Shown here: piece after piece, positions 103 through 12,140 of the stretch
Layout: the number at the start of each line of letters is the position of its first letter
Numbering within the stretch: position 1 is the stretch's first letter
DNA from: an uncultured Flavobacteriales bacterium
Lineage (GTDB): Bacteria > Bacteroidota > Bacteroidia > Flavobacteriales_D > Crocinitomicaceae
Reading direction: 5' to 3'
Length of the DNA: 43,984 nucleotides
Assembly (NCBI GenBank): GCA_905478665.1
Contig: CAJQJL010000018.1
Span: 1 to 43,984, forward strand
Made by a program: the position numbers and the translations under genes
Notes under the pieces: model-generated
Told to the model about the DNA's origin: nothing
Databases searched by the model: none
Seen by the model: the letters and a program-made list of their open reading frames with translations, nothing else

Positions 103-795
103 TTAACTTTGAACGAACTTTAATAGTCGGTTCTGGTTATTGATATGTATGATTCTTTTCTCAACTGATATCAATGACAAATTTTTAAGCTCTTTCAAAC
201 TCCTTGATAAACTTTCTCTAGAAGTCCCAATCAGATTGGCTAAGTCCTCACGAGGAATGTTAATTCCGTTGGAACTGGTATTGGTTTTATTCAGTCTATG
301 GTTCAACACCAATAGAAATATTCCGAGACGAAGAACTTGTGATTTTTGAGCCAAAACAGAAATAAAGTTAGCCATTACACCAAATTCATGCGCCATATTG
401 GTAATCACAGATTCCTTTAATTTGGGAATTTCATTAAGCAATCGATTGAAATTTGAGCCACTAATAAATTTAACTTCTAAATGACTTAACGCTGCGCATG
501 AATCTTGATAGCGTTCTTGTGATAGCAGTGCATGGTAACCGAGTAGATCGCCTTCATTGTAGATGTAAAATAGTTGCTCCTGATTGAAGGCTGACTTATA
601 TTTCTTAGCGATGCCTTTCGTTATAAAAAACACACCAGTAGGAACACCATCTTCATAAAATAATTTGTCCCCAGCATTGAACTTCAGGTCTTCGAATGTT
701 GCACGAATTTGATCAATCTCTTTTTGATTCAGGGAGTTGAACAAGAAGTCACTGTTGAAATCAAATTTTTTAAAAAAAGTACTTGTTTTTAACAT
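103..795 (-). CDS. Crp/Fnr family transcriptional regulator
   Basis: The 230-residue protein has the usual family length: an N-terminal cyclic-nucleotide-binding-type beta-roll (about residues 20-130), a long dimerisation helix, and a C-terminal winged helix-turn-helix (about 180-215). The recognition helix reads GTSRESLSRSLKEL; its E-x-x-S-R matches the residues FNR uses to read TTGAT half-sites. No N-terminal cluster of four cysteines is seen, so it is probably not an oxygen-sensing 4Fe-4S FNR, and the ligand is unknown. It is divergent from the carbon-transport island and precedes a J-domain gene. Because a perfect TTGAT-N4-ATCAA palindrome lies before sulP, it is a candidate local regulator; that link is inference. 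Confidence 0.85.
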   Translation of the reverse strand: MLKTSTFFKKFDFNSDFLFNSLNQKEIDQIRATFEDLKFNAGDKLFYEDGVPTGVFFITKGIAKKYKSAFNQEQLFYIYNEGDLLGYHALLSQERYQDSCAALSHLEVKFISGSNFNRLLNEIPKLKESVITNMAHEFGVMANFISVLAQKSQVLRLGIFLLVLNHRLNKTNTSSNGINIPREDLANLIGTSRESLSRSLKELKNLSLISVEKRIIHINNQNRLLKFVQS

Positions 796-816
796 TTGTT
801 AAAGATAGGTATTACA

Positions 817-830
817 TTTGTTCTAATCAA
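817..830. promoter_or_regulatory. weak FNR-like half-matching site in divergent promoter region
   Basis: TTTGT-TCTA-ATCAA: the right half-site is a perfect ATCAA, while the left matches TTGAT at three of five positions. It lies between the Crp/Fnr gene and the divergent small secreted protein, where autoregulation would be expected. Alone the match is weak; it is listed only because a perfect copy exists at 5676-5689. Confidence 0.2.
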
Positions 831-844
831 AGCTACTGATTGTC

Positions 845-852
845 TATATTTG
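845..852 (+). promoter_or_regulatory. Bacteroidota -7 promoter element (TATATTTG)
   Basis: TATATTTG fits the Bacteroidota -7 consensus TAnnTTTG exactly and lies 9 bp before the ATG at 862. A TTTG at 817-820 could be the -33 element, although the 24-bp spacing is slightly longer than usual. The element supports the reality of the small downstream gene. Confidence 0.45.
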
Positions 853-861
853 TAGTTAGAA

Positions 862-1215
862 ATGAATAAGATTCGACATACATTCTTTGCATTCTTTGTG
901 ATGCTACTCTCCACATCAATTGTGCAAGCAGGAGGATATAACATTTCTGAAATTTCTTCTTCCGAAATGATCATCGAAGACACGATCGAAGAAGAAGAGG
1001 AAGAAGAATCACTTCATTCCGTCGAACAGTTATCAGATAAAGATTATGCACAGGACGGAGGAGATACTAAAAGTGTTTCGTCACATGCAATCTTACAGGA
1101 AAACAATTCATCACTTATAAGTGAAAGAACACTTGTTCAATTCAACAGAGGTGTAAAAAGTCATACTACACTTCAGTTATATCTACTTTATTGTTGCCTT
1201 AAGCTGGATCTCTAG
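862..1215 (+). CDS. small secreted acidic protein of unknown function
   Basis: The 117-residue protein has a clear signal peptide (MNKIRHTFFAFFVMLLSTSIVQA, cleavage after A-x-A at about residue 23), a strongly acidic stretch (seven consecutive Glu near residue 43) and a short hydrophobic C-terminus containing two adjacent Cys. I do not recognise a family. A good -7 element just upstream argues for expression. It lies 73 bp before dabA in the same direction, so it could be the first gene of the carbon operon or a separate transcript. Export plus acidity suggests a periplasmic or surface role, but no function can be assigned. Confidence 0.5.
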   Translation: MNKIRHTFFAFFVMLLSTSIVQAGGYNISEISSSEMIIEDTIEEEEEEESLHSVEQLSDKDYAQDGGDTKSVSSHAILQENNSSLISERTLVQFNRGVKSHTTLQLYLLYCCLKLDL

Positions 1216-1255
1216 ATCAATCAATTTCACCAATTTCTCCCTGTGATCAGCGGAG

Positions 1256-1285
1256 TTTAGAAATTAGTATTGATTAGAAATTTAG
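1256..1285 (+). repeat. short direct repeat before dabA
   Basis: TTAGAAATTAG (from 1257) is repeated as TTAGAAATTTAG (from 1274), 17 bp apart and immediately before the dabA start at 1289. The spacing and position would suit a regulator-binding pair, but the motif is AT-rich and may be chance. Confidence 0.2.
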
Positions 1286-1288
1286 TAA

Positions 1289-3772
1289 ATGACACACCAT
1301 TTTAATGAAGATGATGTCCTTCATAAGTTGAGGCATTTTCTTCCATCACAAGCGCCTTTAAAGGACTTTATACATCACAATACGCTGCATGCTTTTCAGA
1401 ATTTTGAATTTTATGATGCGTTGAGGAAATCAGCAGTGATTTTCGGAAATAGAACGACGCTTTCGCTCCGTGAGTATAGAGACAAGTTCGCTAAAGGTGA
1501 GATACCAGAAGCCATTGTAGACAATGTGATTCTGTCGAGTAAATCCAAAGAAGCTTTCTCAAAATGGAAGGAACAAATGTTCTCCATTGAAGAGGTGAAG
1601 ACACTTGATCCAAAGATTGGAAGACTAAGAAAATTTTGGGAAGTAGATTATGGAATTGATATGGACGGTATGGTTCGTCCAAATATTATCCGAATAATTA
1701 ATTCGTATTTAGACCAAGGGATTGCATTTGAAGGATTGCCTAATTCTGACCAAGGTCTTTTGGACGCTGTAATATCCATACAGAACAACAGTTATGCAAA
1801 AATATTAAATTCTGAAAAGTCTATTTTTTATTTAAATAAAAAAGACAAACGGCTAGAAGATTTATTAAAACTAATTGTTGGAGATGAACGCTATTATGAA
1901 CAGTATTTATTTGACCAACAATATTCTCACCCTGGTTTATCAGGGTTGGTATGTGCGATTGAGTTAAAACCGGACGCATTGTTTTCAGAGCGGAATATCA
2001 CATTGTTTGATATCATTTATTTGGAACTGTTGTTTGAGTTGGAATCGCTGGAAGTATTCGTCAGTAAGAATTTTAAACCGTTGGCAACAGGAGCAGTATT
2101 CGAACCAACAGACCTTTTTGAAGATGTTTTAACAGATGATTATTGGGAGGTTTTAGAATTGTGGCAAGAATCTTTTGAAAGCACGTATCACGATCAGGTA
2201 TTGAAAGGGATCTCTGGTGTTAAAAACGAAGCTAAGACTAATCCACCTGCTTTTCAGGCATTCTTTTGCATTGATGACAGGGAAGAATCGATAAGACGGA
2301 ACATTGAAATGCTTGCGCCAGAATGTCAAACATTTGGAACACCGGCACACTTTAATATCATAGCTCGATTTAAACCAGAAAACGCGAAATTTTCAACACA
2401 AATTTGTCCAGCACCGTTTACTCCTACTCATTTGATCAAAGAATCCAACAGGACTTCGCGACCAAAAAAGGATGTGCACTTTCAAGACTCTTCGCATAAG
2501 TTCTTTTCGGGCTTTATTATCTCACAGACTGTAGGGTTCTTATCGACAATTAAGCTTTTCACGAACATTTTTAACCCCACAGAAAGCATTGCACAGTATA
2601 ATGCGACAAAGGACCACATGGATTATACATCCAATTTGATTTATGAAAATGTTGAAGGTGGTACTGAAGACGGGTTTAAGGTAGGCTTTACATTAATTGA
2701 AATGATAGATATCGTTTTTGGAGAGCTATCTAACACTGGCTTAACAGGTGATTTCGCGCCCTTAATTTATCATTTTGGACATGGAGGAAGCAGTATAAAC
2801 AATCCATATTTTGCTGGGTACAATTGTGGTGCATGCTCCGGTCGACCGAGTACTGTTAATGCAAGATTATTTGCCATTATCGCTAATCGAAAAGACGTAA
2901 GAGAAGGGCTTAGTGAAAAAGGGATGAAGATACCCGCTTCAACACATTTCGTTGGAGGATATCATGATACAACCAGAGACACATTCGCCTTTTTTGATGA
3001 AGATCTTATTTTGGAAAGCCTTGTTGATTTGCACCGGTCGATTAAAACAATGTTTGAGCAAGCTTTGAGTATGAACGCTAAAGAAAGAGCGAGACAATTC
3101 AAACTGATTGATATAAAAAAGACACCTAAAAAAGTTCACAGAGAAGTTTTGAAGCGAGCATTATCATTGTTTGAACCTAGGCCAGAATACAACCATTCTA
3201 ATAATGCATTGTTTATTGTTGGAGATAGAAAACTGACGCAAAATTTGTTTCTAGATCAACGAGCGTTCTTGAATTCATATGATTACAAACAAGATAAGGA
3301 AGGCAAATTACTTGAAAATATACTGAACGCAGGAACAGGAGTTTGTGGAGGAATAAACTTAGAGTACTATTTCTCCAGTGTTGACAATGAAAAATTGGGA
3401 GCTGGATCAAAATTGCCACAAAATGTAATCGGATTGTACGGTGTAGCAAATGGTGTGAAAGGCGACTTGAGGCCCGGTCTACCTTGGCAAATGGTGGATG
3501 TCCATGATCCTATCAGGATTTTGACGGTCGTAGAAAACACGCCTGATATGGTTCTGAATGTGTTGAAGGCAAATCCAAAAACATTTGATTGGTATCGGAA
3601 GGGCTGGATGAAACTAAGTGTTTACGACCCTTATACCAAGGAAATAAGCATTCTGAAAAATGATGAGTTTGTTCCGTATCACTTTGTCACGGATAAAATT
3701 GAAACGATCACTGATTTTGAACAGTTGGTTGAATCAACTCATAAGAATTTACCTGTTTATACCATTAATTAA
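1289..3772 (+). CDS. dabA: DabA, inorganic carbon transporter subunit (DUF2309)
   Basis: The 827-residue soluble subunit belongs to the DAB dissolved-inorganic-carbon accumulation complex, which couples a beta-carbonic-anhydrase-like zinc site to a membrane subunit and converts CO2 to bicarbonate on the cytoplasmic side. The expected zinc ligands are visible: Cys327 and Asp329 in FFCIDDREES, His498 in FGHGG and Cys513 in NCGACSG. The His-to-Cys spacing (15) and the Cys-x-Asp spacing equal those described for Halothiobacillus DabA. Its N-terminus (LRHFLPSQAPLKDFIHHNTLH) is typical of DUF2309. dabB starts 6 bp after its stop. No RuBisCO or carboxysome gene is in the window, so a role in heterotrophic carboxylation is likely. 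Confidence 0.93.
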   Translation: MTHHFNEDDVLHKLRHFLPSQAPLKDFIHHNTLHAFQNFEFYDALRKSAVIFGNRTTLSLREYRDKFAKGEIPEAIVDNVILSSKSKEAFSKWKEQMFSIEEVKTLDPKIGRLRKFWEVDYGIDMDGMVRPNIIRIINSYLDQGIAFEGLPNSDQGLLDAVISIQNNSYAKILNSEKSIFYLNKKDKRLEDLLKLIVGDERYYEQYLFDQQYSHPGLSGLVCAIELKPDALFSERNITLFDIIYLELLFELESLEVFVSKNFKPLATGAVFEPTDLFEDVLTDDYWEVLELWQESFESTYHDQVLKGISGVKNEAKTNPPAFQAFFCIDDREESIRRNIEMLAPECQTFGTPAHFNIIARFKPENAKFSTQICPAPFTPTHLIKESNRTSRPKKDVHFQDSSHKFFSGFIISQTVGFLSTIKLFTNIFNPTESIAQYNATKDHMDYTSNLIYENVEGGTEDGFKVGFTLIEMIDIVFGELSNTGLTGDFAPLIYHFGHGGSSINNPYFAGYNCGACSGRPSTVNARLFAIIANRKDVREGLSEKGMKIPASTHFVGGYHDTTRDTFAFFDEDLILESLVDLHRSIKTMFEQALSMNAKERARQFKLIDIKKTPKKVHREVLKRALSLFEPRPEYNHSNNALFIVGDRKLTQNLFLDQRAFLNSYDYKQDKEGKLLENILNAGTGVCGGINLEYYFSSVDNEKLGAGSKLPQNVIGLYGVANGVKGDLRPGLPWQMVDVHDPIRILTVVENTPDMVLNVLKANPKTFDWYRKGWMKLSVYDPYTKEISILKNDEFVPYHFVTDKIETITDFEQLVESTHKNLPVYTIN

Positions 3773-3778
3773 AACGCA

Positions 3779-5644
3779 ATGGAAGTCTTATTACCCTTCT
3801 TTTTAGTGATCCCATTTTTGGGATTTATAGTCAGTCTATTCTTTTCGAAAAAGAAAGAAAGATCGATTTTCTTGGCAATGGCAACGGCTACTTTATTACA
3901 GGTAGTATTCGCCATATCTTTCACAGCTTATTGGGCAATTTTCATTAAAAGCCCTTTAAATATTAGAGAAATAACACTGTATAAATCGGACCATTACAGC
4001 TTTTTTATCGATTTATATTTTGATGGGGTTACTGCAACGTACTTGATTATGTCGAGTGTACTAACCTTTATGATTGCTCATTTTAGTCGTAGCTATATGC
4101 ATAAAGATGCAGGATACAAACGCTACTTCAATAACATGCTGCTTTATTTCTTCGGAATTCAGATTATTATTTTTTCGGGAAACTTTGAAACACTCTTTAT
4201 TGGATGGGAAATCCTTGGAGTTTCATCATTTCTATTGATAGCCTACTACCGAGATCGATACTTACCTGTTCGAAATGGATTTAAAGTTTTTTCAATGTAC
4301 CGAATCGCGGACATCGGAATTTTGCTGGCAATGTGGCTTATGCATCATTTGTTTCATGAAAATATCACGTTTCTTCAATTAAAGACCACCGATTTTGTAG
4401 CAAGTCATATCGAACAACATTATTGGATAGGGATTTTAATCTCAGCCTTTATTTTACTTGCTGCATTTGTGAAGTCAGCTCAATTTCCGTTTTCATCATG
4501 GCTTCCAAGAGCAATGGAAGGACCGACGCCTTCAAGTTCTATTTTTTATGGATCGATAGCTGTCCATATTGGAATCTATTTACTATTGAGAACGTATCCT
4601 TTTTGGGGACATATTCTCGCGGTTAAGGTTGTTCTAATAATTCTTGGGCTATTATCTGGTTTTATTGCCAGTTCGATCGCCAAAGTACAATTCTCAATTA
4701 AAGCACAAATAGGCTATTCATCGATTGCTCAAATCGGGATCATGATGGTAGAAGTGGCGCTTGGATTTGAAACACTGGCATTGATTCACATGTGTGGGAA
4801 TGCGTTTCTTCGGTCGTATCAATTACTTGTTAGTCCTTCAATCGTCACTTATCAGTTGCGCGATCAGTTTTTCAATTTCATTCCAAAATTACCGAGCGCC
4901 TATTCTGCATTTCAAAAAAAGATAGCAAACACGTTTTATGTCCTGTCCTTGAAGGAATTCTACATGGACAATTATCTCTATAAATACTTGTGGTTTCCAT
5001 TCAAACGAATGGGGAACAAAGTTTCATTTTTGAGTACCAAATTAGGATTGACAACAGCGATAATTGGGTTTTCTATTTCTGCGTATTTGCTTTATGGAGA
5101 TGCGTATGAAAATTTAAAGTTCCACCAATATATTCCCAATCTAATTGGATTAATAGCATTGGTATTTGTGCTTAGAGCTTTTACAATCCGAAAGCATCCA
5201 TTTGGTGCTTGGATATTACTAGTTCTTAATCATTTTTGGGTTGCCTTGGCAGTGTCCTTCAATGAGCATTTCAGCTACTGGGAAATTTTTTATTACATAA
5301 GTGGAGTTGTAGTTTCCGGAGTCATTGGCTTTCTCGTTTTAAACGCATTGGAGAAAAAGGAATATTTCAGCCTTGATGACTATTACGGTCATGCTATTGA
5401 GCATAAATCGTTGGCAGTAACTTTTCTACTATGCTCACTTGCATTGATGGGGTTTCCAATAACAACAACCTTTCTAGGGGAAGACTTATTGTTCTCCCAC
5501 ATTCATAGTGATCAAGTTTTACTAATGACTTTGGTCGCAATTAATTTCATGCTTGCGGGCATTTCAATAATGAGAATATACACCCGTGTTTTTATGGGGC
5601 CGAATCATAAATGGTATAGATCCGAGGCTAGACGATCAGCTTAA
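3779..5644 (+). CDS. dabB: DabB, proton-conducting membrane subunit (NuoL/MrpA-like)
   Basis: The 621-residue polytopic membrane protein resembles NADH dehydrogenase subunit 5 / Mrp antiporter subunits. Diagnostic segments are IGWEILGVSSFLLIAYYR, the lysine-containing FVKSAQFPFSSWLPRAMEGP, and TPSSSIFYGS, which correspond to the proton-channel core. In DAB systems this subunit anchors DabA and lets a cation gradient drive CO2 hydration. Its position 6 bp after dabA, with no other nuo or mrp gene nearby, assigns it to DAB rather than complex I. The C-terminal part (about residues 430-600) has extra hydrophobic helices beyond the core. Confidence 0.9.
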   Translation: MEVLLPFFLVIPFLGFIVSLFFSKKKERSIFLAMATATLLQVVFAISFTAYWAIFIKSPLNIREITLYKSDHYSFFIDLYFDGVTATYLIMSSVLTFMIAHFSRSYMHKDAGYKRYFNNMLLYFFGIQIIIFSGNFETLFIGWEILGVSSFLLIAYYRDRYLPVRNGFKVFSMYRIADIGILLAMWLMHHLFHENITFLQLKTTDFVASHIEQHYWIGILISAFILLAAFVKSAQFPFSSWLPRAMEGPTPSSSIFYGSIAVHIGIYLLLRTYPFWGHILAVKVVLIILGLLSGFIASSIAKVQFSIKAQIGYSSIAQIGIMMVEVALGFETLALIHMCGNAFLRSYQLLVSPSIVTYQLRDQFFNFIPKLPSAYSAFQKKIANTFYVLSLKEFYMDNYLYKYLWFPFKRMGNKVSFLSTKLGLTTAIIGFSISAYLLYGDAYENLKFHQYIPNLIGLIALVFVLRAFTIRKHPFGAWILLVLNHFWVALAVSFNEHFSYWEIFYYISGVVVSGVIGFLVLNALEKKEYFSLDDYYGHAIEHKSLAVTFLLCSLALMGFPITTTFLGEDLLFSHIHSDQVLLMTLVAINFMLAGISIMRIYTRVFMGPNHKWYRSEARRSA

Positions 5645-5675: not shown

Positions 5676-5689
5676 TTGATTTAAATCAA
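5676..5689. promoter_or_regulatory. perfect FNR/Crp-type palindrome before sulP
   Basis: TTGATTTAAATCAA is a perfect 14-bp palindrome matching the FNR consensus TTGAT-N4-ATCAA. It lies in the 60-bp dabB-sulP gap, ending 15 bp before the sulP ATG. The Crp/Fnr regulator encoded at 103-795 has the E-x-x-S-R recognition residues expected for this half-site. The position is too close to the start codon for classical activation and fits repression or an internal promoter better. Confidence 0.5.
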
Positions 5690-5704
5690 AGAAAATAAAA
5701 CGAC

Positions 5705-7894
5705 ATGAAAAATAATACCATACCAAAAAGAGGGCTTGCAGGTTTGAAAGCTCATTTTAAAGACGACATTCTCGCTGGATTCAGCGTATCATTAATTGCT
5801 TTGCCACTATGTTTGGGGATTGCGATTGCTTCAGGTGTTCCACCACTTGCGGGATTAATCACTGCCATTGTTGGTGGAATGATAGCCTCGCGAATCTCCG
5901 GAACATTTGTTACCATTAGTGGACCAGCTGCAGGATTAATTGTAATCACATTAGGAGCAGCAGAAGCCATGGGAGGAGCAGGCGCTGAATCAGGATTTGC
6001 TGGTTATCCGCATGCTCTTGGAGCAATTGTTATAGGTGGATTAATCATGGCGTTATTTGGTCTACTGAAAGTTGGAAAAGTAGGTGACTATTTTCCATCA
6101 GCGGCAGTTCATGGAATGTTAGCGGCAATTGGAATAATAATTATCATCAAACAGTTTTTTCCTGCTATTGGTGCACCATCTCCAAGCGGAGAGATCTTGG
6201 AAGTTGCAACAGAAATTCCTGCTGCGTTCTTAGAATACAATCCATACGCCTTATCAGTGGCTTTGGTGGCTCTCGCGATATTGATTATTCATCCAATGTT
6301 AAAGTTGAAAGCAATTAAAATGATTCCCGCGCCAATGTGGGTGCTTATCTTCACTATTCCTATGGCGGCCTTCTTAGGTACTAATCATTTGGCAATGGTA
6401 GAAATGCCTCATAACCTCTTTGGTGAAGGAGGATTCCAATTGCCATCCTTTGAAAAGATAGGAGAGTCTGCATTCTGGATAGCAGTCGCAGGTTTTTCGC
6501 TCGTTTCAGCTATTGAAAGTTTATTGAGTGCAAAGGCGGTCGATAGTCTTGATCCATACAAGCGGAACTCCAATCTCAACAAAGATTTAATTTCCATGGG
6601 AACAGGATCATCTTTAGCTGCAGCTATTGGTGGTTTACCAATGATCTCTGAGATTGTGCGTTCTTCAGCCAACGTGAACAACGGGGCAAAAACACAATGG
6701 TCGAACTTTTTTCACGGTGGTTTCTTACTCGTTTATCTACTGATTGGCGTATTTGTGATTGAAATGATTCCAATTTCAGCATTAGCCGCTATGTTAGTAT
6801 TTACAGGATTTAGACTTGCCTCACCAAAGGAATTCAAGCACATGTACAAAGTTGGTTTGATGGAATTGGAAATATTCATTGTCACTTTAGTAGCCGTATT
6901 GGCAACTGACTTAATTATCGGGATAGTAATTGGAATCGTCTTTAAATATGTTCTTGTACTATTCAAAGGAACGAAAATCAAAGAGCTTTTTAAATCACAC
7001 TTGTCCATTGAAATAGAAAACGAAATAAAAACGATCCGCCTGAATGGATCGCAGATTTTCTCCAACTACTTATCCTTAAAGAAGAAAATGGATAGTGGAA
7101 TCGGGAAATACAAGGAACTCATTTTGGACTTTTCAGATGTCACATTTGTAGATCATACGGTAATGGAGCATTTAGAAGATTATGCAAGACAGGTAAGGCT
7201 TAAAGGAAAGGAAATGCACATTGTTAATGTAGACTCTTTAAATCCTGTTTCAGATCATCCATTGGCTGCAAGAGATAAAAAAGAACGTCAAAAACGCCCT
7301 GCGACATCCCTTAGTTCAAGAACAATTGATATGTTGGAATTTGCGCAAGAGCATAATTTCAAATTTGAGAATCAGGACACTAATTACAAGGCGTGGGAAT
7401 TCTATAATTTGAGTATCCGAAAAACAATTAAATCCGTTGAGAATGTTGTTTCATTTAATCGTGGAGATATTCAGTTTAGCATAGCAGACATTACCATTTC
7501 TTCAGGAGCACAAGCAACGGAGGATATAGATCGTCTTACTGTGATGAAATTATCGGGTGTCTCAAATGTTCCAGAATTCTATATGCAAAAAACGGGAATA
7601 GCTGATTTCCTTAAAACTGCAATTGGAAATGATGACATCAATTTTGACAGCCATCCTGTCTTTTCGAAAAAATTCGAATTACGATCTCAGAATGAGGAAC
7701 AAGTTAGGACGTTCTTTAATACACATGTGTTGTCTCGCTTGGAAGTCTTTGATCTTGCCTATTTGAGCGGAAACGGAACGGAACTCTTATTTCATCAAAG
7801 CAATAAGATTTTAGAAAAAGATCAAATTTTGAACTTGATTGCAATTGGTGATAAAACAGCAACGGATTTATTTATGACAAATAGTAAAGCTTAG
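5705..7894 (+). CDS. SulP family anion (probably bicarbonate) transporter with C-terminal extension
   Basis: The 729-residue membrane protein opens with the SulP core: the ALPLCLGIAIASGVPPLAGL and TISGPAAGL signatures within about 430 residues of transmembrane helices. A STAS domain follows (about 440-545, with LDFSDVTFVDHTVMEHLEDY). Beyond STAS, about 180 extra residues continue to the C-terminus. They include a segment near 650-700 (F-x-x-x-F-x-L-x-S, V-R-T-F-F, NGTELLFHQS) that resembles the C-terminal part of DUF3137-type proteins. Members transport sulfate or bicarbonate; the neighbouring dabAB and carbonic anhydrase genes favour bicarbonate. The next gene starts 11 bp downstream. Confidence 0.88.
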   Translation: MKNNTIPKRGLAGLKAHFKDDILAGFSVSLIALPLCLGIAIASGVPPLAGLITAIVGGMIASRISGTFVTISGPAAGLIVITLGAAEAMGGAGAESGFAGYPHALGAIVIGGLIMALFGLLKVGKVGDYFPSAAVHGMLAAIGIIIIIKQFFPAIGAPSPSGEILEVATEIPAAFLEYNPYALSVALVALAILIIHPMLKLKAIKMIPAPMWVLIFTIPMAAFLGTNHLAMVEMPHNLFGEGGFQLPSFEKIGESAFWIAVAGFSLVSAIESLLSAKAVDSLDPYKRNSNLNKDLISMGTGSSLAAAIGGLPMISEIVRSSANVNNGAKTQWSNFFHGGFLLVYLLIGVFVIEMIPISALAAMLVFTGFRLASPKEFKHMYKVGLMELEIFIVTLVAVLATDLIIGIVIGIVFKYVLVLFKGTKIKELFKSHLSIEIENEIKTIRLNGSQIFSNYLSLKKKMDSGIGKYKELILDFSDVTFVDHTVMEHLEDYARQVRLKGKEMHIVNVDSLNPVSDHPLAARDKKERQKRPATSLSSRTIDMLEFAQEHNFKFENQDTNYKAWEFYNLSIRKTIKSVENVVSFNRGDIQFSIADITISSGAQATEDIDRLTVMKLSGVSNVPEFYMQKTGIADFLKTAIGNDDINFDSHPVFSKKFELRSQNEEQVRTFFNTHVLSRLEVFDLAYLSGNGTELLFHQSNKILEKDQILNLIAIGDKTATDLFMTNSKA

Positions 7895-7905: not shown

Positions 7906-8412
7906 ATGAAAAAATCTTTAGATCAATACATCAACAAAATTAAAGAAAAGACAATCTTCATTTATTGCAATGATTGTTATGAAGGAAACCTGATCACACC
8001 AACGGATAATCTAATGGTGCATACGCTCTTCGGTAACATGATTAATTTTTCTGATGTTTTTGAATTGGAATATTTGGAGCATAATATACAATTTGAAGGA
8101 GTTACTAAAATTCTTCTCTCGGGGCATTATAAGTGTGAAATCTTGAATTATATAAATAACTCATGCACGCAAAACTTGAAATTGAATCTCAGTAACATGG
8201 AGTTCGAAAGAATGAACGCTAAACGAAAGGATGATGGTAAAAAAGCCTTGCAGCGACAAGTCATTAAAACAAATCTTATAGATCAGGTAAACAAGCTCTC
8301 TCAAATCAAATTCTTCAAGGATAAATTAAACAGGAGCGAAATCAGTATTCAGGGAATCATTATTGACGATACTCATGACGGAGGTTTTCATCCTATTGAA
8401 GAAGTGATTTAA
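7906..8412 (+). CDS. divergent beta-carbonic-anhydrase-like protein (CxDC motif)
   Basis: The 168-residue protein is short but follows the beta-carbonic anhydrase plan. FIYCNDCYEG aligns with the CxDSR loop, FGNMINFSDVFELEYLEHNI with the RNIAN...S-x-x-Y-A-V helix, and KILLSGHYKCE with VxGHxxCG. The zinc ligands Cys21, His74 and Cys77 and the dyad Asp23 are kept, but the Arg of CxDSR is Tyr25 and the Ser is Cys24. The Cys-to-His spacing is 53, against 56 in the bona fide enzyme at 10514-11143. Loss of the Asp-Arg dyad predicts weak or altered catalysis, or a CO2/bicarbonate-sensing or scaffold role (inference). It sits 11 bp after sulP and 17 bp before the DUF2490 gene, clearly in the operon. 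Confidence 0.7.
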   Translation: MKKSLDQYINKIKEKTIFIYCNDCYEGNLITPTDNLMVHTLFGNMINFSDVFELEYLEHNIQFEGVTKILLSGHYKCEILNYINNSCTQNLKLNLSNMEFERMNAKRKDDGKKALQRQVIKTNLIDQVNKLSQIKFFKDKLNRSEISIQGIIIDDTHDGGFHPIEEVI

Positions 8413-8429: not shown

Positions 8430-9182
8430 ATGAAAAAGGTATTAGGCGTGACATTACTGCTCCTGTTGAGCAACACATTAAAAGCGCAAAAAACAGGAGA
8501 CAATCAGTTCAATACATGGTTGACTTATTCTGGCGATCATTCAGTTTCAGAAAGGATTGATATTCATACCCTGTACTCTTTCAGACGAAATGAGTTCATG
8601 GAGAATTGGCAACAATCGCTTTTACGTGTTGGAATGGGGGTACGATTGGCGGATAAAATAAAAATGCAAGTGGGTTATGATTGGCTAGTTACCTTTCCGT
8701 ATGGAAAACAACCAATCTCATTTCGCACAAATGAGCATCGAATTTGGGTCCACTTAAACTTGAAATTTCAAGAGAAGCGATTTTATTTCGCCAACCGTAT
8801 TCGTTTTGAAAATAGAGCAATTGAAGACATTCATGCGGGCGATCAAAATGAAAGAATCGTTGATGGGTTTAACTGGAAATACCGTCTTCGCTACAAGTTC
8901 GCGGTAGATGTTCCATTGAATAAAAACCGAATGGAAGAAAACACCCTGTTTTTAAGCGTTAGTGATGAGTTGTTTATGAATCTCTTTGATAAGAATCACT
9001 ACTTTAATCAGAACTGGTTTTACGCTGGTCTTGGATGGAGGTTCACTGAAAAAATAAAGCTTAAGATTGGATATATGAATCAGTTCTTACCCAAAACAGA
9101 TGGAGATCATGTAGAGAACAACCATACGCTAAGTTTATCCTATATTCAAAACTTTAGTTTTGCTAAAAACAATAATCAATAA
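8430..9182 (+). CDS. DUF2490 outer-membrane beta-barrel protein
   Basis: The 250-residue protein has a signal peptide ending at about residue 19 (LLLLLSNTLKAQ), then alternating amphipathic strands rich in aromatic residues: FNTWLTYSGDH, ERIDIHTLYSFRRNEF, RIWVHLNLKFQEKRFYFANR. This is the DUF2490 pattern of small Bacteroidota outer-membrane barrels; it ends in an aromatic strand, LSLSYIQNFSF. Function is unknown for the family. Co-transcription with DAB and SulP (17 bp after one gene and 12 bp before the next) suggests an outer-membrane component of the carbon system, for instance a bicarbonate-permeable pore, but this is inference. Confidence 0.8.
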   Translation: MKKVLGVTLLLLLSNTLKAQKTGDNQFNTWLTYSGDHSVSERIDIHTLYSFRRNEFMENWQQSLLRVGMGVRLADKIKMQVGYDWLVTFPYGKQPISFRTNEHRIWVHLNLKFQEKRFYFANRIRFENRAIEDIHAGDQNERIVDGFNWKYRLRYKFAVDVPLNKNRMEENTLFLSVSDELFMNLFDKNHYFNQNWFYAGLGWRFTEKIKLKIGYMNQFLPKTDGDHVENNHTLSLSYIQNFSFAKNNNQ

Positions 9183-9194
9183 AGTCGAACTAAT

Positions 9195-9797
9195 ATGAGT
9201 TTAATGGATCTCACAAAAATGCAATCACTCAACGATACAGAGTTTGACAAATTATATGCTGAAAAGTATCGCGAGCACTCCAATATTCATTGGAAGCCCA
9301 TTGAGGTGGCTAAAGCTGCCCTTGATTGGCTTGCTATTACGCATGAGTCAAGTGTATTGGATATAGGATCAGGTGTAGGGAAATTTTGTTCGTTAGGAGC
9401 ATTACTGACAGATGGACAATTTACGGGGGTTGAAAAAAGAAGGGAATTGGTCGAAACCGCCGAATCAACAATTAAAAATTTAAACCTTCCAATTATTCAA
9501 TACTTACATTCGAATATTACGAAGGTAGACTTCACACAATTTGACTCATTTTATTATTACAATCCTTTTTGTGAGCAAATATCCATTTCTGGTCAAATTG
9601 ATAACACAATCTCATACTCTCCTAATAAATACCGTATGTATGAAGATTACGTTATCGATCAATTTAGCGACTTACCAATTAACACAAAAGTTGTAACGTA
9701 CTGCTCACAGAATTTCACATTTCCAGACACCTATGAATTAAAAGGGTTACTATTTGATGGGACTATAGCATTGTGGATCAAAACGAAAGAAAAGTAA
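9195..9797 (+). CDS. class I SAM-dependent methyltransferase
   Basis: The 200-residue protein has the SAM-binding motif I VLDIGSGVGKFCSLGAL, an acidic post-II residue in FTGVEKRRELVETAE, and a motif IV-like SFYYYNPFCEQ. This is a complete single-domain Rossmann methyltransferase; the substrate is not identifiable. It lies 12 bp after the DUF2490 gene and 7 bp before an acyl carrier protein, so it belongs to the carbon operon by position. Its N-P-F after a Tyr run resembles the NPPF/NPPY-type loops of N-methyltransferases, so an amine or protein side chain is one possibility. Confidence 0.75.
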   Translation: MSLMDLTKMQSLNDTEFDKLYAEKYREHSNIHWKPIEVAKAALDWLAITHESSVLDIGSGVGKFCSLGALLTDGQFTGVEKRRELVETAESTIKNLNLPIIQYLHSNITKVDFTQFDSFYYYNPFCEQISISGQIDNTISYSPNKYRMYEDYVIDQFSDLPINTKVVTYCSQNFTFPDTYELKGLLFDGTIALWIKTKEK

Positions 9798-9804
9798 AAC
9801 AAAG

Positions 9805-10044
9805 ATGGTATTAGAAAGAATTAAGACGATAATTGAAGTCGAAATGGGGTTCACATGCCCAAAGGAATTACAAACTGCAAATTTTGTGAATGACTTAGGA
9901 ATGGACAGTTTAGATATAGTAGAACTAACGTTATTGGTAGAAAGAGAATTTACTATTTACATTGATGATAACTCTGCTACTGAAATGAACGTAGTTGGAG
10001 ATTTAATTGAATACGTTGGTGCTAAGAATAAACATCTAAAATAG
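9805..10044 (+). CDS. acyl carrier protein
   Basis: The 79-residue protein has the acyl carrier fold pattern with the phosphopantetheine serine at Ser35 in LGMDSLDIVELTLLVEREF and helix III I-Y-I-D-D. Length and acidity are typical of ACP. It is probably not the housekeeping acpP, since no fab genes adjoin it. It closes the carbon operon, 7 bp after the methyltransferase, and its last 9 bp overlap the 3' end of a convergent pseudogene. Its partner enzymes are not in the window, so what it carries is unknown. Confidence 0.85.
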   Translation: MVLERIKTIIEVEMGFTCPKELQTANFVNDLGMDSLDIVELTLLVEREFTIYIDDNSATEMNVVGDLIEYVGAKNKHLK

Positions 10045-11402: not shown

Positions 11403-12140
11403 ATGTTCAAACATCACCGTTATCCAAAAGCAATAATCCTCCAAGCAGTTTATCTTAAACTGAAATTTACCCTAAGTTACCGAGATATAGAAGAATTACT
11501 TTCCATGCGGGGAGTTCAGGTTGATCATTCCACAATTCAGCGCTGGGTATTCAAATTTTCTCCTGAGATTGAAAAGAACATGCACAAAAGAAAAAGGCAG
11601 GTTTGTTCAAGTTGGAGAATAAGAGAAAGCATGCTTTCGAAGGCTGAACGGTAGTGCTAAGACGAAACCTACATCAAAGTAGGAGGTAAGGACCGCTATC
11701 TTTACGGAGCTGTGGATAAATTTGGAAACACCGTTGATTTCCTATTGACCAAACGCAGAATGCGAGGGTCAGCACAATTATTTCTGCGCAAGACCATTGG
11801 TAATAACAGAAAACCAAGGATGGTAAATATCGATAAAAGTGGTGCAAGCAAATCTGGCATTAGGACGATCAACCGGGATCTACTAACGGTGCAAAAAATC
11901 AGGATTCGACAATGCAAATATTTAAACAATATTGTAGAACAAGACCATCGAAATATCAAGAGGCGAATATCGATAGACACTGGCTTCAAAGAATTCGAAT
12001 CAGCCCAACGAACCTTGGCAGGAATAGAGATCGTCAATGTCATTATGAAGAATCAAATCATGAATTCTAAGGCTTCATCGTTTAAGACATTTCTGTCACT
12101 AGCGCTTGAATCTAGGTTTAAAACATGTAAATTTAAATAG
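11403..12140 (+). pseudogene. IS6-family transposase, interrupted by in-frame stops
   Basis: The first part (from 11403) carries the helix-turn-helix of IS6 transposases: LSYRDIEELLSMRGVQVDHS, then TIQRWV. After SSWR about 13 extra codons intervene, with TAG at 11652 and TAA at 11658. The DDE catalytic domain then resumes in the same frame at DETYIKVGGKDRYLYGAVD (11661). The later catalytic residues are present: Asp in MVNIDKSGAS and Glu in NNIVEQDHRNIKRR. The protein also ends with the family-typical F-x-S-A-x-x-T-L-A-G-I-E. Because both halves share one frame, an insertion of about 39 nt just before the first catalytic Asp is the simplest explanation. The copy should be inactive unless stops are read through. 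Confidence 0.85.

Follow-up and report, generated by a model that had tools for sequence, protein, structure and literature searches.

A small leader gene at the head of the dab operon in Bacteroidota as a candidate exported nascent-chain regulator

The DNA considered here, called the window below, is a stretch of 43,984 nucleotides (nt) from an uncultured Flavobacteriales bacterium of the family Crocinitomicaceae (assembly GCA_905478665.1, contig CAJQJL010000018.1, positions 1 to 43,984 of the forward strand). Near its start, an open reading frame (ORF) at 862..1215 (+) runs from ATG to TAG and encodes 117 amino acids (aa), just ahead of an operon that begins with dabA, and the question is what such a small gene does at this place. 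An earlier note, made from the sequence alone, took it for a real gene for an unrecognised, exported and acidic protein behind a consensus promoter, which might bind cations or protons near the membrane complex. The answer that we favour, with a probability of roughly 60%, is that the ORF encodes an exported regulatory leader, which would act as a sensor while it is being exported and would govern dab via the translation of its last codons. The following parts of the leader are needed for the discussion:

862..1215, + strand: leader ORF, 117 aa, stop TAG, supported by relatives and by rule-based presence at operon heads
862..933, + strand: predicted export signal, residues 1-24 (hydropathy 2.34 over 11 residues; AlphaFold2 helix 3-24; end set by eye)
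988..1008, + strand: stretch of seven Glu, residues 43-49, the acidic patch, ca 71 residues from the C-terminus (sequence)
1177..1212, + strand: stop-anchored tail LYLLYCCLKLDL, residues 106-117 (tail profile score 11.6; AlphaFold2 helix 101-116)

The ORF is thus present as described earlier, as are the run of seven consecutive Glu and the hydrophobic export signal, the latter judged by hydropathy together with the AlphaFold2 helix. That the protein is unrecognised also holds, since no match above the cut-off was found in Pfam, NCBIfam or PADLOC, and none by sequence in the PDB. A plasmid search with the protein gave none. When 54 aligned leaders were compared to Pfam, the lowest E for any family was 0.0041, for one member only.

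Among 60 relatives, two congeners have good leader matches directly ahead of dabA, with 41% (G006, E 7.7e-13) and 33% identity (G019, E 9.6e-4) to the window protein, and another match (G024, E 0.018) lies at a contig end. These four proteins were made into a profile, which in 399 genomes of the order led to further leaders: before dabA in G349 and G094, before a sulP-like gene followed by dabA and dabB in G220, and at a contig end in G374. In the window's own genome, the window leader is the sole convincing match to the profile called A3 (E 6.4e-12), the next match (E 0.004) having internal stops. Within the genus, dabA is present in 6 of 34 genomes, and all three with the window's dab subtype have the leader. 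In the other three, the score on the DabA model is higher and dabB is the first gene; two of them (G007, G030) lack a leader and carry a divergent gene, and in the third (G010) the contig starts at dabB, the operon head being out of view.

To quantify selection, 11 pairs of related leaders (28-97% identical) were compared, the window's own leader not being among them. The ratio of non-synonymous to synonymous change (dN/dS) is 0.07-0.38 in eight of the nine computable pairs, values that are rough as dS exceeds 1 in several of them; it is 0.68 in one pair with few changes, and two pairs were not computable. The non-synonymous change per site is lower in the last 13 codons than in the middle in all 11 pairs. 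ORF 862-1215 is a real gene, and related leaders are under purifying selection. That it might be a chance ORF without function, to which the lack of any match in Pfam, NCBIfam, PADLOC or the PDB could lend colour, is contradicted already by the conserved place and tail and by the selection in related leaders, and is close to inconceivable.

We now consider how often such a leader heads the operon, using a rule that is blind to the tail: an ORF of 80-220 aa on the same strand, ending at most 480 nt from the operon head, with a hydropathy of at least 2.0. The first set of loci comes from a DabA alignment search and comprises the best 80 of a longer list, less three (L064, L112, L136) that were set aside with the operon head not visible; for nine loci, an upstream gene was manually taken as the head on inspection of the ORFs. 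The rule finds a leader candidate in 55 of the 77. Two of these picks (L076, L120) have unrelated tails and look spurious, and in two other loci (L103, L127) a leader is missed by the rule and a tail of the type is present by eye.

For the second set, DabA was sought in 198 genomes of the class and found in 47. Upstream DNA was taken from 43 of the 54 listed DabA matches, the window and 10 fragment matches being left out, and removal of eight repeats of first-set loci (exact 60-base match) leaves 35 loci. Thirty of these are of the window's subtype; in one (L244) the head is off the contig, and a leader is found in 25 of the remaining 29, where the rule could pick among several candidate heads per locus. 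The figure is the rule's own: one of the four loci counted as lacking a leader (L260) has a clear one, with the tail IFLSIRVLRI, that was missed because two genes overlap, and it is left uncounted. In the five loci of the other subtype, DabA scores above 800 bits, the first gene is dabB, and there is a divergent gene, 297-308 aa long, which is a LysR by Pfam in the two cases tested, L238 and, in the genus, L050. None of the five has a leader (0/5 vs 25/29, Fisher p 0.0005, with L242, which the script labelled as window-type, assigned to the leaderless subtype by score and layout); in three of them an ORF of 100-111 aa that lacks a hydrophobic N-terminus precedes dabB.

The reading frame, whose lack of conservation in close relatives was named in the earlier note as what would speak against a gene, is thus retained in the congeners and at the dabA loci of both surveys (55/77 and 25/29). 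A search for small secreted acidic ORFs ahead of dabA in other Bacteroidota was also proposed there; small ORFs with a predicted export signal head most of the surveyed dabA loci, and the picture of an acidic protein with an export signal heading the carbon operon is borne out by the congener matches and the rule-based surveys.

Common to the leaders are a predicted export signal, an acidic patch ca 60 residues before the stop, and a stop-anchored tail with roughly the motif P[LI][YF]L..[RC]N[LF][RK]I. A profile was made from 48 leaders, which were hand-picked with positions and tails in view and with near-duplicates excluded; its positions are P(-11), L/I(-10), Y/F(-9), L(-8), R(-5), N(-4), L/F(-3), R(-2) and I(-1), and some tails extend 1-4 residues beyond the motif. 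In a leave-one-out comparison, 36 of the 48 leaders score at least 6, vs none of 533 C-termini of other ORFs longer than 200 aa in the same DNA; such scores occur in 0.6% of 1126 other ORFs and in 2.0% of 960 shuffled tails. If near relatives are excluded, a score of at least 1 is reached by 48 of the 55 rule picks and one of at least 6 by 39. Against the first-set profile, 20 of the 25 second-set leaders score at least 1 and 15 at least 6, and in L269 and L279 the tail motif is present by eye. That a rule blind to the tail finds leaders at operon heads, and that their tails share a stop-anchored motif, is the first reason for the regulatory reading.

The second concerns the geometry. In 50 leaders, the distance between the centre of the acidic patch and the C-terminus is 52-82 residues (mean 61, SD, the standard deviation, 7.6); when the position is measured from the signal core instead, the SD is 12.1. 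For the second set, the distances to the C-terminus average 60 residues (SD 10.2, range 43-83), and 22 of 25 patches have a net charge of -4 or stronger. In the region 45-75 residues before the end, 36 of 49 leaders have 11 residues in a row with a net charge of -5 or stronger, vs 2 of 278 controls, these being other proteins with a hydrophobic N-terminal segment. The median distance from the patch to the start of the tail is 48 residues, and the middle region is very divergent. AlphaFold2, run on the window leader with 34 leaders in the alignment (mean pLDDT 66, pTM 0.29), gives no folded domain, only the signal helix 3-24 and the C-terminal helix 101-116. The position of the patch, and the lack of a predicted fold apart from the end helices, favour the regulatory reading.

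Behind the leader, the operon of the window is as follows, together with the gene upstream of it:

1289..3772, + strand: dabA (PF10070), the first structural gene, 73 nt after the leader (Pfam)
3779..5644, + strand: dabB-like proton-antiporter subunit (PF00361; Pfam)
5705..7894, + strand: SulP carrier (PF00916, STAS; Pfam)
7906..8412, + strand: carbonic-anhydrase-like protein (PF00484; Pfam)
8430..9182, + strand: DUF2490 protein (PF10677; Pfam)
103..795, - strand: divergent Crp/FNR-type regulator, upstream of the leader (Pfam)

In other loci, the order of these genes differs. Where a sulP-like gene comes first, the leader precedes it (L085, with Pfam support; L088, L102, L121, L132 and L135, by eye; and G220), which means that the leader marks the operon head and not dabA. 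In L141 it precedes DUF2490, and in L083 (Pfam) and L104, L105 and L118 (by eye) the dabA leader is accompanied by another one, which belongs to a divergent sulP-like gene.

Leaders with the same tail type also stand before carriers and enzymes unrelated to dab, as found with a tail-profile scan of 1.09 Mb and a census of G142. In L126, a leader-like ORF at 11670-11993 (+) with the tail VPIYLDHRAIVV precedes a CitMHS-type carrier (Pfam; NhaD-like by eye) on the same contig as a dabA leader. In L059, one at 5683-6087 (-) with the tail FYLLYQSLKLLD lies directly ahead of a DoxD-DoxA gene (thiosulfate:quinone oxidoreductase type), and in G236 such a leader precedes DoxDA (Pfam). In L124, the leader is itself a member of NF047658 (HYC_CC_PP) and precedes a TonB receptor, and in L185 of G142 (699-1118, +) an acidic leader with the tail VVFQVFRI lies 162 nt before an MFP gene, an AcrB-type gene and one further gene. 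Seven matches of the 1.09 Mb scan with scores of at least 6 look unrelated (L068, L070, L077, L078, L086, L109, L129). The census, of 1.2 Mb of G142 (tail threshold 1.5, hydropathy 2.0), gives one clear acidic leader, the one before the RND operon, the other matches being ordinary or overlapped ORFs by eye, so such leaders are possibly few per genome. The occurrence of one tail type before unrelated carriers and enzymes points to a common partner such as the ribosome, and this, together with the leader following the operon head, argues for the regulatory reading.

Two additional ORFs may be mentioned here. In L094, a second leader-like ORF (3534-3878, +; tail KKPLFILFQQFLI) lies ca 660 nt before the dabA leader, with only short ORFs behind it. 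In L204, a DUF6660-like ORF (5873-6220, +; 21.8 bits, cut-off 27) with the tail NIWQPPKLG precedes a thioredoxin-like gene, and it is possibly another leader class.

These results bear on the alternatives. The leader could be an accessory subunit, that is, a stable exported or membrane-anchored protein whose C-terminal helix docks on DabB/DabA or SulP and aids assembly or gating. The close linkage to dabA and the predicted C-terminal helix are in line with this, and Halothiobacillus DAB1 is described as having an extra small transmembrane protein, hneap_0908. However, the leader keeps its place at the operon head when another gene comes first, the same tail type occurs before unrelated genes, the middle is very divergent with no predicted fold, and one DabA-DabB subtype lacks the leader, all of which makes a subunit unlikely.

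Another option is that the tail is a recognition tag for a periplasmic PDZ-type protease or sensor, which would read it once the protein is exported and would signal carrier demand. A motif that is anchored to the end of the chain, and whose final residue is mostly hydrophobic, would suit a C-terminal ligand, but the tails that run 1-4 residues past the motif fit poorly into a strict end-binding pocket, and a tag gives no reason for the operon-head position; we regard it as improbable. Still harder to maintain is the suggestion made in the earlier note, an acidic periplasmic protein that binds cations or protons beside the DAB complex. An acidic stretch of net -5 or stronger is indeed found in 39 of 49 leaders. 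Yet the leader also heads operons that begin with sulP or DUF2490, being placed by operon head and not by dabA; the stop-codon tail, common to divergent leaders and found before unrelated genes, is left unexplained; and AlphaFold2 gives no folded domain. The acidic patch may nonetheless do the sensing, and might in that role meet ions or an electric field.

We turn to the question of where transcription starts. The promoter consensus of Bacteroidota has a -7 element, TAnnTTTG, with a -33 element ca 19 nt from it. Upstream of the leader there are two such sequences:

813..820, + strand: TAnnTTTG element TACATTTG (sequence), the second of the two
845..852, + strand: Bacteroidota-type -7 element TATATTTG (sequence), 9 nt before the leader ATG

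The TTTG at 817-820 lies 24 nt before the element at 845..852, longer than the ca 19 nt expected for a -33 element. Across the first set, TAnnTTTG occurs between -150 and +30 of the leader start in 32 of 55 loci vs 12% in base-composition shuffles, accompanied by a TTG near -33 in only 11 of the 32, and in the second set it occurs near the leader start in 17 of 25 vs 11% in shuffles. The gaps between leader and operon contain it in 0 of 48 cases vs 10% in shuffles. The simplest reading is a single transcript that would start at the leader, and the presence of the element near the leader start and its absence from the gaps behind is a further reason for a regulatory leader. The consensus promoter of the earlier note therefore stands in part: a sigma-70 scan of 700-1500 finds one promoter-like site vs 3.0 expected, and sigma-70 and terminator scans of the window give nothing above chance, while the TAnnTTTG elements are there and are enriched across the leader class.

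The data presented here show the conservation of the leader, its position and architecture, purifying selection and the placement of the promoter element; the mechanism that we infer from them has one transcript, export, arrest and control of dab as its parts. The leader would be the first cistron of the dab-sulP mRNA, and its signal would direct the translating ribosome to SecYEG. With the last codons being read, the acidic patch, some 60 residues back, would have reached the translocon or just passed it, and the conserved tail would still fill the tunnel of a ribosome that stands at the stop codon. There, the tail would slow or arrest translation or termination, an effect that pulling or binding of the chain on the outside would either relieve or be required for, and the position of the ribosome would decide the expression of dabA, or of sulP where that comes first, either by uncovering the downstream start or by shielding the mRNA from termination. 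The finished leader protein would be disposable. As to the distances, a segment is described as reaching the translocon ca 40-50 residues from the peptidyl-transferase centre (PMC7886326), which for a ribosome at the stop codon would put the patch in or beyond the translocon.

In its layout, the leader resembles the exported nascent-chain regulators SecM, CutF and CruR, and could by analogy work as they do. CutF and CruR are described as copper sensors whose export is shown or predicted and which act as nascent chains on the next gene (PMC9973294, PMC9426467). CutF of Rhodobacter capsulatus, of the DUF2946 family (PMC9973294), is like the leader a small exported protein directly ahead of a gene, which CutF controls through co-translational export. 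CruR (Bp2923) of Bordetella pertussis, also DUF2946, is a predicted exported upstream ORF (uORF) that heads a transporter operon and is predicted to be poorly structured (PMC9426467). The spacing is also similar, with 45 residues from copper site to tail motif in CutF/CruR (PMC9973294, PMC9426467) vs the median of 48 from patch to tail in the leaders.

There are, however, clear differences. CutF is a copper sensor; the genes behind the leaders are for carbon carriers. CutF-like proteins have a double-proline tail and a Cys/His site, whereas of 49 leaders two have CxxC or CxxxC in the middle and one has PP within its last 16 residues. PF11162 (DUF2946) is not among the 22 families listed at E <=1 for the 54 aligned leaders. 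The published list of CutF-like proteins includes many from Bacteroidota, and it is described as requiring PP in the last 15 residues, with Cys/His metal sites. The window protein has the size and layout used there (less than 150 aa, an N-terminal signal by hydropathy, a same-strand gene within 1000 nt), but it lacks the PP tail, which is present in the second-set leaders L259, L262, L263 and L267, and has no Cys outside the tail. In CruR, the tail motif ends 3 residues before the C-terminus; its CXXC and RAPP motifs are not shared features of the leaders, its signal is copper, and it is described as acting through Rho-dependent termination, with regulation that does not need the signal peptide (PMC9426467). 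The dab leaders, without copper site and double proline, would thus work like CutF/CruR without being members, as a new variant.

A closer comparison within Bacteroidota is HYC_CC_PP (NF047658), whose members also have an N-terminal hydrophobic segment and a hydrophobic, stop-anchored tail end (e.g. LHQVFRI). Of 30 fetched loci, 15 were readable; in these, the next gene begins -3 to 382 nt downstream, and nine of the next genes look RND-like by eye. As a group, 19 HYC_CC_PP tails outscore gene C-termini (p 1e-13), one of them (L157) being the wrong ORF. Unlike the dab leaders, these proteins have conserved HYC and CC residues, and the window protein has no match to the NF047658 model at E <=10. 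Full-length homology between the two groups was considered and rejected, as a profile comparison (hhalign) aligns only 10 tail columns, with a probability of 12.7%. The window's own genome (G000) has three HYC_CC_PP matches, at C75:7079-7477, C75:31261-31584 and C3:25669-25836.

The arrest peptides provide a last comparison. A published screen used four features: a small uORF before sec/yidC, an N-terminal signal, a conserved C-terminus, and a spacer of more than 30 residues (PMC10987492). The same paper describes Bacteroidota uORFs ending in NSP or NAP with stop-dependent accumulation of peptidyl-tRNA. Like these, the leader has a signal, a conserved C-terminus, a spacer (signal and tail are ca 80 residues apart) and a place before a membrane-machinery gene; the published ones precede secA, secDF or yidC and have another tail sequence, whereas the leader precedes dab or sulP. 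By this analogy, we infer that the tail could arrest the ribosome, and the presence of the last three of the four features, like the existence of a divergent-LysR dab subtype that does without a leader, favours the regulatory reading.

What might be sensed? Our preferred guess is membrane energisation, acting on the acidic patch. SulP, RND and NhaD carriers are driven by ion gradients. The same is described for DAB2 (PMC13144422), and according to a review Delta-psi pulls acidic residues through SecYEG and releases SecM arrest (PMC6028853), although basic and uncharged stretches are also freed, so that Delta-psi is not the sole force (PMC6028853). As the carriers downstream are mostly driven by ion gradients and Delta-psi pulls acidic residues, sensing of membrane energisation is attractive but unproven. 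In its strictest form, the nascent chain would be a voltmeter, in which the membrane potential pulls the patch in the field of the translocon, sets the arrest at the tail, and lets the carriers (DAB, SulP, RND, CitMHS/NhaD-like) match the energisation. We consider this doubtful; if true, it would be a gene switch that reads the membrane potential directly and is widespread in Bacteroidota.

It is important to point out that several results weigh against the regulatory reading. No leader is picked in 22 of the 77 first-set loci, and the gap from leader to operon varies from 58 to 355 nt. In the second set, three of the 25 tails (L259, L263, L267), all at upstream-gene heads, are of another type with a double proline. 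Such tails also occur in L262 (score 4.1) and in L120 and L135, where the genes behind are sulP-like by eye; examples are VYSPPEIL, IYSPPEHILC and DHSPPPERNS, and judging from their sequences they may link to CutF-like tails. Of 49 leaders, 19 have the pattern H-x0-3-H in their middle part and 13 have at least two Cys there, so that some of them may bind metal. Also, the tail of CutF alone is described as no strong stalling sequence (PMC9973294).

The RNA between leader and operon is another such point. In the window, one feature stands out:

1203..1286, + strand: predicted RNA stem that includes the leader stop and leaves 2 nt to the dabA ATG (folding)

The RNA 1201-1320 folds with -29.2 kcal/mol and has 24.3 stop-to-start pairs vs 7.5 in shuffles; for 1156-1329, z is only -1.48. 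An earlier control, upstream of the leader, looked favourable for the class (mean z -1.77 vs -0.59), but a control with other gaps removed most of the difference. Leader gaps are not clearly more structured than these, with a mean z of -1.82 (48 gaps) vs -1.57 (116 other gaps, which may include terminators; p 0.086), and stop-to-start pairing is above shuffles in only 20 of 44 leaders (p 0.41). A general stem-loop RNA switch in the leader gap is thus unsupported against other gaps and shuffles, despite the strong stem in the window.

The stop codons behave similarly. TGA ends 20 of 48 first-set leaders vs 49 of 354 genes (p 1.5e-5; p 0.03 vs other small ORFs) and 12 of 18 HYC_CC_PP ORFs, but in the second set it is 9 of 25 vs 18 of 71 (p 0.31), and the window's own stop is TAG. 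As the bias is insignificant in the second set, it was not relied on as support for arrest at termination.

If the reading is correct, the principle of a nascent sensor, known for copper and for protein export, would extend to inorganic-carbon and ion transport in Bacteroidota. It gives a concrete hypothesis for the regulation of DAB-type CO2 uptake there, marks a group of nameless small proteins as likely regulators, and, owing to the geometry of the acidic patch, makes sensing of membrane potential by a nascent chain directly testable. Literature searches, in which few subscription journals were covered, gave among the matches listed no title that deals with a small ORF preceding dab or sulP in Bacteroidota, and 0 papers on HYC_CC_PP and DUF6660.

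Finally, two observations concern the DNA behind the dab operon. At 9195-10044 (+), the operon is followed by a small methyltransferase and an acyl-carrier-like gene, and similar methyltransferase ORFs are found by eye after the dab operon in G006 and G019. At 11403-12140 (+) there is a transposase remnant, whose 3' ORF matches DDE_Tnp_IS240; its 5' ORF, transposase-like by eye, stops before the 3' ORF begins, so that this copy looks broken.
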